Made by a program: the position numbers and the translations under genes | IMG/VR virus record: IMGVR_UViG_3300032282_003375 | Coordinates: 1 to 32,093 of that record | Strand: one strand, 5' to 3' | Length of the DNA stretch: 32,093 bases | Origin: a virus | Part shown: piece by piece, positions 1,807 through 28,473 of the stretch | How positions within the stretch are numbered: the first letter of the stretch is position 1 | How the letters are laid out: every line of letters begins with the position of its first letter | Notes under the pieces: model-generated | Told to the model about the DNA's origin: nothing | Database searches by the model: none | What the model saw: the letters and a program-made list of their open reading frames with translations, nothing else

Positions 1807-2049
1807 GTGTCAACCCCTGAGTTACAACCGGGGTTTTGGCGCGGCGTACGTCAGGAAGCATTAGCTGGCATCGTCGTGCTTGCCGTCGGCAGTGCCGGTG
1901 CTGGTATCTTTTACCTGTGCTACACCGTCCCAACCAAGCTGGATGATGTGCTTAGCAACCAGCAGGTGATCCAAAAAAAGCTTGGTGACGTCGAAGACAA
2001 AGTGCTCGATCATGACGTGCGTATTATCAAGCTGGAACTATCTAGGTAG
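1807..2049 (+). CDS. Small single-pass membrane protein, holin candidate
   Basis: GTG start at 1807, 80 residues. After a polar N-terminus (STPELQPGFWRGVRQEA) comes one hydrophobic helix at ~18-42 (ALAGIVVLAVGSAGAGIFYLCY), then an amphipathic heptad-like tail (LDDVLSNQQVIQKKLGDVEDKVLDHDVRIIKLEL) that could form a coiled coil. Size, topology and position upstream of an endolysin fit a holin or a lysis accessory membrane protein, but the family is not one I can name and no experiment links it to lysis. It is followed after 2 nt by the next ATG, so the two are co-translated. Confidence 0.7.
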   Translation: MSTPELQPGFWRGVRQEALAGIVVLAVGSAGAGIFYLCYTVPTKLDDVLSNQQVIQKKLGDVEDKVLDHDVRIIKLELSR

Positions 2050-2051
2050 GC

Positions 2052-2237
2052 ATGACTGAACGTGTGATCGTACACAGCACTGACATCGGTCAAGGCTTCA
2101 CCATCGAACAGCTTGAAAACGAACGTGGAGATCTGTACTACAGAGTATGTAAAGGTGGTGTATGCCGGTATTGCGAAGACGAGTATTTTGCCCACATGTA
2201 CGCAGAAGGCATGGGCTGGAAATCACCTACTGACTAA
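2052..2237 (+). CDS. Small Cys-containing hypothetical protein (61 aa)
   Basis: ATG 2052 follows the stop of the membrane protein by 2 nt. The sequence MTERVIVHSTDIGQGFTIEQ... contains a CKGGVCRYCEDEYF stretch whose three cysteines could bind metal or form disulfides; no family recognised. The 3' end overlaps the 3' end of the reverse-strand HNH gene by 11 nt. The last codons sit inside one copy of a 9-bp repeat (GAAATCACC) that bounds that HNH cassette, so this C-terminus (WKSPTD) may be a product of the insertion. Confidence 0.65.
   Translation: MTERVIVHSTDIGQGFTIEQLENERGDLYYRVCKGGVCRYCEDEYFAHMYAEGMGWKSPTD
2219..2227 (+). repeat. Left 9-bp direct repeat flanking HNH cassette
   Basis: GAAATCACC at 2219-2227 is repeated exactly at 2566-2574. 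Between them lies little more than the leftward HNH gene, whose stop codon starts at 2227. Confidence 0.55.
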
Positions 2238-2535
2238 GCCAGTAACAAATTGCATCTTCTAAGTGCGGCTCCCAAAAATGCTGCATACGAAACCAATCTT
2301 TCCATTCGTTGGAACTTTTACGCACGTTACAATTAAAACAGGCAGCAACCAAATTGGATGTTGAAGTTTCTCCGCCTTTGGATTTTGGACGCACGTGATC
2401 GAGCGTTCCAGATTTACCTAAATGCTCTCGACAGTACGCGCACTTGTAATCCCAACCTTTCAGTATTTGATCTCGAAATTTAGCCTTAGCCTGGCGTTTA
2501 CTTACAAAGCCAAGTTCCTCGTCGATGTAGTCCAC
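2227..2535 (-). CDS. HNH endonuclease (McrA-like, zinc-binding)
   Basis: The 102-residue protein has the full compact HNH signature: C32-x2-C35 (KCAYC), LDHVRPKSKGG at ~45-55 with the catalytic D46-H47, N61 (TSNLVAACFNCN) and a second zinc pair C66-x2-C69 followed by N70. This is the free-standing nuclease type found as homing elements, in restriction and next to phage packaging genes. Here it lies in reverse orientation inside the lysis region, away from the terminase. With flanking direct repeats, a mobile homing role is more likely than packaging. ATG start at 2535 (MDYIDEELGF). Confidence 0.9.
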   Translation of the reverse strand: MDYIDEELGFVSKRQAKAKFRDQILKGWDYKCAYCREHLGKSGTLDHVRPKSKGGETSTSNLVAACFNCNVRKSSNEWKDWFRMQHFWEPHLEDAICYWLSQ

Positions 2536-2631: not shown

Positions 2632-2775
2632 ATGGGCATCCTCGAAAACCCGATTTTCTGGATCGTTGTTGCTGCAGCATCCGAAATAATCGGCATTACC
2701 CCCTCCCTGAAAGCAAATAGCATCCTGCAACTGGTGATGCAAATCCTTACGTTGCTACGTCCAAAAAAGCCCTGA
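2632..2775 (+). CDS. Short hydrophobic protein (47 aa), holin-like; frameshift 0-frame product
   Basis: MGILENPIFWIVVAAASEII... then a second hydrophobic stretch (SILQLVMQILTLL) and a basic end (RPKKP), stopping at TGA 2773-2775. Two short hydrophobic helices and a charged tail, directly upstream of the endolysin, fit a small holin. I recall similar ~45-55 aa proteins ('NPxFWIVVAAASEII') in cyanophages, without a known function. Codons 44-46 are CCA AAA AAG, which place an in-phase slippery heptamer two codons before the stop. A long coding-like stretch without a start codon continues in the -1 frame. Confidence 0.7.
   Translation: MGILENPIFWIVVAAASEIIGITPSLKANSILQLVMQILTLLRPKKP
2763..2769 (+). 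promoter_or_regulatory. Candidate -1 ribosomal frameshift site A_AAA_AAG
   Basis: The zero-frame codons CCA AAA AAG contain A_AAA_AAG in the exact X_XXY_YYZ phase, the same heptamer used by bacterial dnaX. A -1 slip here joins the 47-aa frame to the frame that ends at 3008 (next codons GCC CTG ATC). A weak CAGT-CGGC-ACTG stem lies a few bases downstream; no strong stimulatory structure or upstream Shine-Dalgarno is evident. A one-base undercall in the six-A run would mimic the same signal. Confidence 0.5.
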
Positions 2776-3008
2776 TCACAGTCGGCACTGGTACTTTTAT
2801 CGCTGCAAAGCGTGAAAAGCAACAGAAAGCCTTTGAAGCCAAGCTTCCTGCTCAGATCATTGCGGCTGAGCAGGAGTGGCTTGCAACCCAACCAAAAACA
2901 CCAGAACCCGTAATTATTCACGAACCAGTAGATACCGAACTACAAACCAGTGACTCTCTAGATTTGGGCGGCCCCATGTCCATCCACGCACCCTGGTCTC
3001 GTGAGTAA
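2770..3008 (+). CDS. -1 frame extension of the holin-like protein (fusion ~125 aa)
   Basis: The frame is open from 2721 to the TAA at 3006-3008 and reads as real protein: ALITVGTGTFIAAKREKQQK, then EAKLPAQIIAAEQEWLATQP, then a Pro/acidic tail ending MSIHAPWSRE. Between the upstream in-frame stop (2718-2720) and this domain there is no ATG, GTG, TTG or CTG except one CTG just after the slippery run. Independent translation is therefore unlikely. A -1 shift at 2763-2769 would give a ~125-aa protein whose 46-residue membrane part carries a ~79-residue cytoplasmic or periplasmic tail. The end overlaps the GTG of the endolysin by 8 nt, as expected for coupled genes. Alternatives are a sequencing indel or a non-standard start. 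Confidence 0.55.
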
Positions 3009-4116
3009 CCCCAACGCCATCAGGCTGCTGGATTTAATGCGCTTTTACCGCAGCCTCCCGCACCAAATGGCTGCTGTAACCGAACTGGAAGAGGCCATCA
3101 ACAAAGCCAACCCTCATATCCTTGGTCGCAATCAGGAGTGGTTCAAGATCTGGAGCCAATCAAAAAAGCAAACTGAAATCTCCAACAACTGGAACGGCAT
3201 TGTTACAGCCGCCCGAATTGCTGGAGCAAAATTCCCCGAACTTGTCGCTGCCCAGTGGTCACTGGAATCCTCCAACGGCAAGGTTGTAGCAGGCCGCAAC
3301 AACTTTTTCGGGCTTAAGGGCCCTGGAAACGTAGCCACCACGCAGGAATTTGTAAACGGCCACTGGGTAACAGTTCGCGACAGCTTTCTCGACTTTCCTG
3401 ATATACAAACTGCTGTTTGTTATCTCGTAACTCACTGGTACAAAGACTACAAAAACTGGAAAGGTTGTAACAACGCACCTAACCGTGCAGAAGCAGCAAG
3501 GTGGCTCAAAAAGCAAGGGTACGCTACCGACCCCACCTACGCAGACAAACTGATCAAATTGATGGATACCCACCAAGCACCAGCATCCAAGGAACACCTA
3601 CTAAAAGTTGCCTACGAATACCAACTAGACAACAAATCAACAACCGGCTACAGAGAATGCTTCAGCTCCAGTTGCGCAATGGTGGCGCGTTACTGGCACA
3701 AAGTCGGCAATGACGACAGCTACAACATCGTCCGCAAAAAGTACGGCGATACAACCGATGTCCACGCCCAACTCAAAGCACTAAAAGAGCTGGGACTCCA
3801 CGCCACATTTGTCCAGGACGGCACTGCCACAGACCTTGAGGCCGAGATCAACATGGGCTACCCCGTACCCGTAGGCTGGCTCCACCGTGGCACCCTCACC
3901 AACCCCAGCGGTGGCGGCCACTGGAGTGTAGTGATCGGCTACACACCAACCCACTTCATCTTGAACGATCCAAACGGCCAAGCAAATCTTTTAGCTGGTG
4001 GTTACACCAGTAACAAAGGAGGCGCTGGAGTGGCGTATTCTCGTAAGAACTGGCTACCTCGCTGGCTCATTGATGGGCCCGAGTCCGGCTGGCTAATCCG
4101 CGTCAGACCAGCATGA
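3001..4116 (+). CDS. Endolysin: N-terminal glucosaminidase-like plus C-terminal C39-like peptidase
   Basis: The 371-residue protein has two recognisable catalytic modules. Residues ~65-190 match the endo-beta-N-acetylglucosaminidase (FlgJ/LytD-like) fold: AAQWSLESSNGK with a likely catalytic E89, NNFFGLKG, then the FLDFPDIQTAVCYLVTHWY and DPTYADKLIKLMD helices. Residues ~205-345 match Peptidase_C39_2-type papain-like domains: YRECFSSSCAMVARYW (nucleophile probably C225), GGGHWSVVIGY (H307), LNDPNG (D323). Together they would cut the glycan and the peptide of host peptidoglycan. No signal peptide, so it needs a holin, consistent with membrane-protein genes just upstream. GTG start overlapping the previous frame; an ATG at codon 13 is an alternative. 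Confidence 0.88.
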   Translation: MSNPNAIRLLDLMRFYRSLPHQMAAVTELEEAINKANPHILGRNQEWFKIWSQSKKQTEISNNWNGIVTAARIAGAKFPELVAAQWSLESSNGKVVAGRNNFFGLKGPGNVATTQEFVNGHWVTVRDSFLDFPDIQTAVCYLVTHWYKDYKNWKGCNNAPNRAEAARWLKKQGYATDPTYADKLIKLMDTHQAPASKEHLLKVAYEYQLDNKSTTGYRECFSSSCAMVARYWHKVGNDDSYNIVRKKYGDTTDVHAQLKALKELGLHATFVQDGTATDLEAEINMGYPVPVGWLHRGTLTNPSGGGHWSVVIGYTPTHFILNDPNGQANLLAGGYTSNKGGAGVAYSRKNWLPRWLIDGPESGWLIRVRPA

Positions 4117-27940: not shown

Positions 27941-28288
27941 ATGCCCGCTTCAATTCCAGTTCGCGCAATCGACCGTCTACGTAAAGCCGCCAACCTCGAA
28001 CCCACTAAAAAAGAGGTCGAGCTAAGTGATGGCAGCATTTTTGAAATGTGGATGGCACCACTGACCATGGCTGAGCGTGAACGCGCCCAGAAAAACGCCA
28101 AGTCTGACGACGCCAATGCTTTCGCTCTCCAACTTTTAATCCAGAAAGCCTGCGACGAAAATGGCGCCAAGTTATTCAGCGCTGGTGAGATCGATGTTCT
28201 CAAGAACGAAGTCAAGGACAGGGATCTCCAGTCGTTGATGCTGGCAATCTTGACTGACGATAGCGAGCCTATCGACCCAAAATCCTGA
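27941..28288 (+). CDS. Tail assembly chaperone G-like protein (115 aa)
   Basis: MPASIPVRAIDRLRKAANLE, then EVELSDGSIFEMWMAPLTMA and a helical middle (ERERAQKNAKSDDANAFALQ LL), ending DDSEPIDPKS. Position between major tail protein and tape measure is that of lambda gpG; the 'eW.apLt..er' strip is common in such chaperones. It should bind the tape measure during tail assembly. A slippery C_CCA_AAA seven nt before the stop lets a fraction of ribosomes continue in the -1 frame to make the longer G-T form. Confidence 0.82.
   Translation: MPASIPVRAIDRLRKAANLEPTKKEVELSDGSIFEMWMAPLTMAERERAQKNAKSDDANAFALQLLIQKACDENGAKLFSAGEIDVLKNEVKDRDLQSLMLAILTDDSEPIDPKS
28276..28282 (+). promoter_or_regulatory. 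-1 ribosomal frameshift site C_CCA_AAA (tail G/G-T)
   Basis: Zero-frame codons GAC CCA AAA contain C_CCA_AAA in the X_XXY_YYZ phase, two codons before the TGA at 28286-28288. A -1 shift continues with ATC CTG AGC GCC GAA and runs to TAA 28471-28473. This is the conserved tail-chaperone frameshift of siphophages. Confidence 0.8.
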
Positions 28289-28473
28289 GCGCCGAACTCC
28301 GTAAGGACAGCTGGCTCATGCTCCAGTTTGGCGTTGCTAAGGAGCTGGGCCTAACCCTTTCCGAAGTCCGGTCCATGATGACAGCCGAAGAACTCCTCGG
28401 CTGGAGCGCTTATTTTTGCATCCTGAACGAAGACCAAGAAAAGGCAATCGAACAGGCAAAACGTCGCCGCTAA
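28283..28473 (+). CDS. T extension of tail assembly chaperone (G-T fusion, ~177 aa in total)
   Basis: Read in the -1 frame after the slippery site at 28276-28282: ILSAELRKDSWLMLQFGVAK, then ELGLTLSEVRSMMTAEELLG and WSAYFCILNEDQEKAIEQAK with a basic end. 'LG.t..ev...mt..El..W.ay..l..e' is the pattern of gpT-like C-terminal parts. An internal ATG at 28318 could allow separate translation, but frameshifting is the rule for this gene pair. The extra domain recruits the major tail protein to the tape measure in the lambda model. Confidence 0.8.

Follow-up and report, generated by a model that had tools for sequence, protein, structure and literature searches.

Conserved frameshifting in tailed phages is known mainly from tail and capsid genes. 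In the tail chaperone pair G/GT of lambda, a -1 slip at the heptamer G_GGA_AAG, near the end of the short ORF, leads to a minority form that is extended at the C-terminus, and the locus described here is alike in this arrangement. It also resembles the dual-form holins (lambda S105/S107, S21, and SPP1 24.1/24.1* and 26/26*), in which two forms come from one small membrane-protein gene of the lysis cassette. In SPP1, each of the two forms has a start codon of its own, and the difference between them is N-terminal (PMC6316719). For MS2, Kastelein 1982 (cited in PMC10885494) is reported to have linked expression of the lysis gene with frameshifting; the shift is invoked there near the lysis gene start, which is a further likeness. 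Among the viruses that infect marine and freshwater cyanobacteria, many appear to make both a short membrane protein and, by a -1 slip just ahead of the stop codon, a long version of it, from a gene beside the one that lyses the host; the slip site is conserved in more than 100 distinct virus sequences.

The window (the whole stretch of viral DNA that was analysed, 32,093 nt) contains a short ORF that starts at ATG 2632 and stops at TGA 2773-2775; its product is MGILENPIFWIVVAAASEIIGITPSLKANSILQLVMQILTLLRPKKP. The other features are listed in Table 1. The short ORF ends in the codons CCA AAA AAG CCC TGA, which places A_AAA_AAG in the phase required for tandem slippage, as the initial annotation had claimed. 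The -1 frame is open through TAA 3006-3008, so that 79 codons follow the slip and the fused protein would measure about 125 aa, and it overlaps the GTG of the endolysin gene (3001) by 8 nt. No ATG, GTG or TTG in the -1 frame of the window yields an ORF of at least 40 aa, so that the frame, as previously described, is open but has no usable start of its own. The remark that the phage uses a tail G/G-T frameshift elsewhere also proved correct: C_CCA_AAA is found in phase at 28276-28282, and the region at about 27941-28473 holds the phage's ordinary G/GT frameshift pair. A homing-endonuclease-like gene with HNH_3 and AP2 domains is located near the tail genes, at 871-1380 on the minus strand.

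Table 1. Coordinates of the features discussed, numbered from the first base of the window.
Feature	Position	Strand	Remarks
Upstream 80-aa protein	1807..2049	+	One hydrophobic segment and predicted coiled coil; corresponds in position to the gene upstream of the membrane ORF in relatives
HNH endonuclease gene	2227..2535	-	Between the two small membrane-protein genes of the cassette; Pfam HNH, E 1.5e-12
Short form, 47-aa membrane protein	2632..2775	+	Family of PHROG 22542, E 3e-15
Slippery heptamer A_AAA_AAG, in phase	2763..2769	+	Slip of -1: CCA_AAA_AAG -> AAA_AAA_GCC
-1 extension, ~79 codons	2766..3008	+	Predicted ~40-aa helix, then C-terminal motif LGGPMSIHAPW; long form ~125 aa
Possible 3' stimulatory RNA structure	2770..2850	+	Weak in the window, stronger across the family
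Endolysin, 371 aa, N-acetylglucosaminidase and C39-type peptidase	3001..4116	+	GTG start; overlaps the -1-frame stop by 8 nt
Tail assembly chaperone ORF	27941-28288		C_CCA_AAA in phase at 28276-28282; -1 frame open to ~28473; tape-measure gene downstream

The short ORF has 545 relatives in IMG/VR. When the fused 125-aa form was used as a tblastn query, S-CBS3, S-EIVl and KBS-S-2A were each matched in two pieces, corresponding to the two frames. The same A-run junction as in the window is present in S-CBS3, S-CBS1, KBS-S-2A, 7B11-B, S-B28 and WH11-B, while S-EIVl has G_GGA_AAG. Three scans of IMG/VR and one of genomes then brought in further relatives and located the membrane domain in 251 loci; since homologues were collected via this domain, extensions carried on other anchors are under-sampled. 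Among 149 distinct membrane ORFs of the family proper, 116 had both the heptamer and a homologous extension and 26 had neither, while the seven discordant cases had either the heptamer only (four) or the extension only (three). The association was strong by Fisher's test (p 1e-21 for the 149 distinct sequences, a value that is only indicative because kinship is not fully removed), and it was retained in 61 clusters formed at 90% membrane-ORF identity and split by state (p 8e-9, likewise indicative given residual kinship).

Two of the four heptamer-only ORFs (L125 and L128) keep the conserved HIRAPW motif at their end, and their extensions have probably been shortened. In the remaining two (L004 and L018), a remnant of 15 codons is left, as it is in L017 (about 15 codons, with the slip site kept), and these three have apparently lost the long form recently. 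In five natural deletions (L023, L024, L129, L146 and L156), the site and the extension were lost together, and the stop codon of the short ORF itself now abuts or overlaps the endolysin start. The P60/S-CBP-type relatives were considered as counter-examples and rejected, because their C-terminal part runs on in frame 0, with no site and no extension. In this group (L168-L247, PHROG 15106-like), a charged frame-0 tail of the type KEDDKIQ... replaces the extension, and several members abut endolysin starts by ATGA overlaps.

The in-phase heptamer was present in 120 of the 149 distinct relatives, as A_AAA_AAG (104), G_GGA_AAG (13), or A_AAA_AAA, A_AAA_AAC and C_CCA_AAG (one each). G_GGA_AAG is the site of S-EIVl and of one marine group, whereas A_AAA_AAC and C_CCA_AAG each occurred in a single locus. 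As a control, the ends of other ORFs in the fetched loci were inspected, and an in-phase heptamer was found within the last five codons in only 11 of 967 (A_AAA_AAG in one). At the codon that contributes the first base of the heptamer, 12 different amino acids occur, and yet its third base was A in all 102 A-type sites; codons preceding Lys-Lys elsewhere in the same loci had a final A in 26 of 147 cases. Judged by this pattern of codon usage and by both controls, the heptamer region is selected for slipperiness and not for the amino acids that it encodes. In a few loci (L089 with A_AAG_AAG, L131 with G_GGG_AAG, L166, and also L090), the extension was retained with a weaker or non-canonical site; these may be weaker slip sites or sequencing variants.

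The extension itself evolves as a protein. In 38 independent, non-overlapping pairs, dN/dS was 0.19 in the -1 frame compared to 1.2 and 1.8 in the other two frames, and substitutions at codon positions 1, 2 and 3 of the -1 frame numbered 320, 195 and 732. Purifying selection on the extension is thus seen in the -1 frame and in neither of the others. A conserved protein in this frame could also be made as a separate gene with its own start, or by termination and reinitiation at the overlapping stop, in which case there would be no fused form. Of 114 loci, 60 have a CTG over the stop (in the window, CTG 2772 lies over the TGA), and GenBank annotates the downstream ORFs separately in S-CBS3 and S-CBS1. 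However, the overlapping codon is GTA, CTA or TTA, none of them a start codon, in 48 of the 114 loci, and there is no ATG near the start of the extension in any of the 114; independent initiation can therefore not be general. Moreover, the conserved residues of the extension begin within a few codons of the slip site, and a separate gene would leave the strict conservation of a slippery heptamer unexplained. We consider this explanation very unlikely.

Downstream of the heptamer, the RNA shows signs of structure at the family level. For 74 representatives, the 90 nt 3' of the site had a mean folding z of -2.04 relative to shuffles, compared to -0.3 to -0.6 at control positions upstream and downstream (calculated over shorter lengths), and long hairpins were found in individual loci. 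The one subgroup that was tested gave a consensus hairpin with slight covariation (double changes in 3 of 20 pairs). In the window itself, z varied with length from about 0 to -2.4, and an Rfam search of the region returned only a sub-threshold chance match. The fold is thus a possible stimulatory element of the family that is weak in the window. Slippage of RNA polymerase on the A run, rather than ribosomal frameshifting, might also give access to the second frame, and most members do have six or more A's. However, G_GGA_AAG and C_CCA_AAG are poor sequences for transcriptional slippage and classic ones for tandem ribosomal slippage, and both the strictly kept phase of the heptamer and the enriched folding downstream argue against a transcriptional origin, which is highly improbable. 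The main alternative offered by the initial annotation, a homopolymer error in sequencing or assembly (or else a recent disabling frameshift) in what is truly one ORF or a broken gene, is scarcely credible: one more A would fuse the two frames in the window, and single contigs can bear such errors, but the same arrangement recurs in more than 100 distinct sequences, including independently sequenced cultured isolates, 13 of the distinct sequences carry G_GGA_AAG and have no long A run, and both frames are maintained, with the extension under purifying selection.

The comparisons exclude, as general explanations, a sequencing error, a dead frameshift and an independent start. The alignment across relatives, which had been proposed as a check, showed an in-phase slippery run with both frames kept and a second frame that lacks a normal start, and the -1 frameshift was supported by each comparative test that the initial annotation had proposed, the fused form being a prediction from sequence. 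Recoding at a conserved site with a coding extension is very likely on these comparisons, and one gene with two products is the best explanation of the whole, with a probability of roughly 0.85. No report of frameshifting in this membrane-protein gene was found in the open-access literature (subscription papers and preprints lay outside the search).

The short form and the extension were modeled separately with AlphaFold2, using alignments built without rows from the annotated phage collection. The model of the short form (pLDDT 78) has helices at residues 7-22 and 30-42, which agrees with the earlier description of a 47-aa protein with two helices. However, the first helix is short and bears an invariant Glu, so that the two helices need not be two true membrane spans. 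Neither the short form nor the extension had a match in Pfam or NCBIfam, and sequence and fold searches of the PDB gave no convincing match. For the membrane part, no homology to a known holin was found in Pfam, PHROG or NCBIfam; the only matches were PHROG 22542, which is the short form itself, PHROG 15106, the P60/S-CBP-type relative whose members have neither slip site nor extension, and PHROG 3509, all listed as function unknown.

In the model of the extension (pLDDT 85), a helix some 40 residues long leads into short strands that cover the conserved LGGxMxIxAPW end. A fold search with the extension found S-PM2p159, a protein of a T4-like cyanophage, and a profile of seven members from T4-like cyanophages matched the C-terminus of the extension (hhalign probability 97.5%, E 7.5e-12) and did not match the membrane part. 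These homologues have a basic N-terminus and one hydrophobic segment, in several cases with a Cys near the end of the segment (LSSC in S-PM2), and in several genomes, e.g., S-PM2, S-B68, MA01 and DSL-LC03, they are located near endolysin or murein-hydrolase genes. A layout comparable to that of an i-spanin, with a single N-terminal membrane segment and a putatively periplasmic domain, houses the homologous module in T4-like cyanophages. S-PM2p159 itself (L255:17831-18229), with its lipobox-like LSSC, follows a gene for a DPBB (RlpA-like) lytic transglycosylase; L257-L262 also belong to PHROG 3316. The basic N-terminus of the T4-like proteins suggests a periplasmic module, whereas the Lys residues before the extension in the frameshift family suggest a cytoplasmic one, the two cues pointing in opposite directions for the topology of the extension.

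The placement of the gene in a lysis cassette, as originally proposed, is supported by the neighboring endolysins. A long ORF, usually an endolysin, adjoins the extension stop in 75 of 118 extension-bearing loci, and in 64 of these 75 the two reading frames overlap by 4 to 32 nt, the long ORF starting at -32 to -4 nt relative to that stop. Shine-Dalgarno-like motifs were rare ahead of the long ORF (five of the 75). The type of adjacent endolysin varies between GH24, GH24+M15 and glucosaminidase+C39. In several marine loci, HNH or other genes come next instead of an endolysin, and an HNH gene follows in 26 marine loci. As would be expected of a holin gene, the locus encodes a small membrane protein next to an endolysin, although not in every marine locus. 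Often, the gene before the frameshift gene codes for a small protein that combines one hydrophobic segment with a coiled coil and that, in some cases, weakly resembles XhlA-type hemolysins. Membrane disruption in SPP1 and PBSX is the joint work of two partner holins (PMC6316719), which for this upstream protein provides a lead only.

Under the reading of one gene with two products, most ribosomes would read 2632-2775 and make the 47-aa membrane protein, while a fraction would shift into the -1 frame at A_AAA_AAG, with one codon left before the stop, and continue for 79 more codons. The resulting long form of about 125 aa would consist of the shared membrane part, the helix and the conserved C-terminal module. 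Both forms probably act in host lysis, since the gene abuts several types of endolysin and the module recurs in membrane-anchored T4-like proteins near endolysin or murein-hydrolase genes. The short form would be a holin-like subunit of the membrane lesion. The long form would be the minor partner, produced at a fixed ratio; it would co-assemble with the short form and either regulate this or connect it with the envelope or endolysin. The ratio of short to long form would be set by frameshifting, as it is for the tail chaperones G/GT. This division between a lesion subunit and a co-assembling regulator or linker is the likeliest mechanism within the lysis reading, and we put it forward tentatively. 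As for the holin-like protein with timing control that had been suggested, a lysis protein with short and long forms remains the likeliest reading, but no profile library connects it to a known holin, and the timing is something that we infer.

By the homology of its extension, the long form may have a role in the envelope rather than that of a simple antiholin. Taken further, it would be a spanin-like or endolysin-tethering protein and not a holin regulator; this is in keeping with the same module in the T4-like proteins, with their basic N-terminus, single hydrophobic segment and nearby endolysin or murein-hydrolase genes, but the membrane parts of the two families are not homologous, and we regard it as somewhat unlikely. 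Alternatively, the frameshift might mainly gate translation of the endolysin, if only shifted ribosomes end at the endolysin start and reinitiate there, the slip efficiency then setting the endolysin level. The overlapping starts with few Shine-Dalgarno-like motifs would fit such coupling, as would the five deletions in which the short-ORF stop has come to abut the endolysin start instead. However, it is common for overlapping phage genes to lack Shine-Dalgarno motifs, and the extension is conserved as a protein with homologues in single-frame genes and so is not a mere carrier of ribosomes; gating as the main function is unlikely. A broader proposal, which is doubtful, combines these elements into a widespread lysis switch, in which slip efficiency at the heptamer would set the ratio between a short lesion protein and a long protein interacting with the envelope or endolysin, and also endolysin synthesis, since a ribosome that has slipped would terminate right at the start of the endolysin.

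If true, frameshifting in a lysis cassette would offer fixed-ratio control of lysis that needs no pair of start codons. It would account, too, for a number of small cyanophage ORFs that are 'hypothetical' or unannotated, and would predict fused proteins that current gene callers have missed in hundreds of viral contigs. Among the known systems, lambda G/GT shares its very heptamer, G_GGA_AAG, with 13 members of the membrane-protein family, but it is located between the major tail protein and the tape measure, whereas here a membrane protein of other function precedes an endolysin. In MS2, the proposal is that the shift terminates coat synthesis close to where the lysis gene begins, whereas here the shifted frame encodes a conserved protein. 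S-PM2p159 and its relatives (PHROG 3316) have a homologous C-terminal module of the EPDGSEAQxLLGGEMRLxAPW type that is likewise membrane-anchored, but they are encoded in a single frame, with another membrane anchor and no need of a slippery site. Finally, the dual-start holins use two starts and differ at the N-terminus, whereas the two forms predicted here share a start and would differ by about 80 aa at the C-terminus as a result of frameshifting; such a C-terminal, frameshift-made difference is new among the dual-form holins compared.
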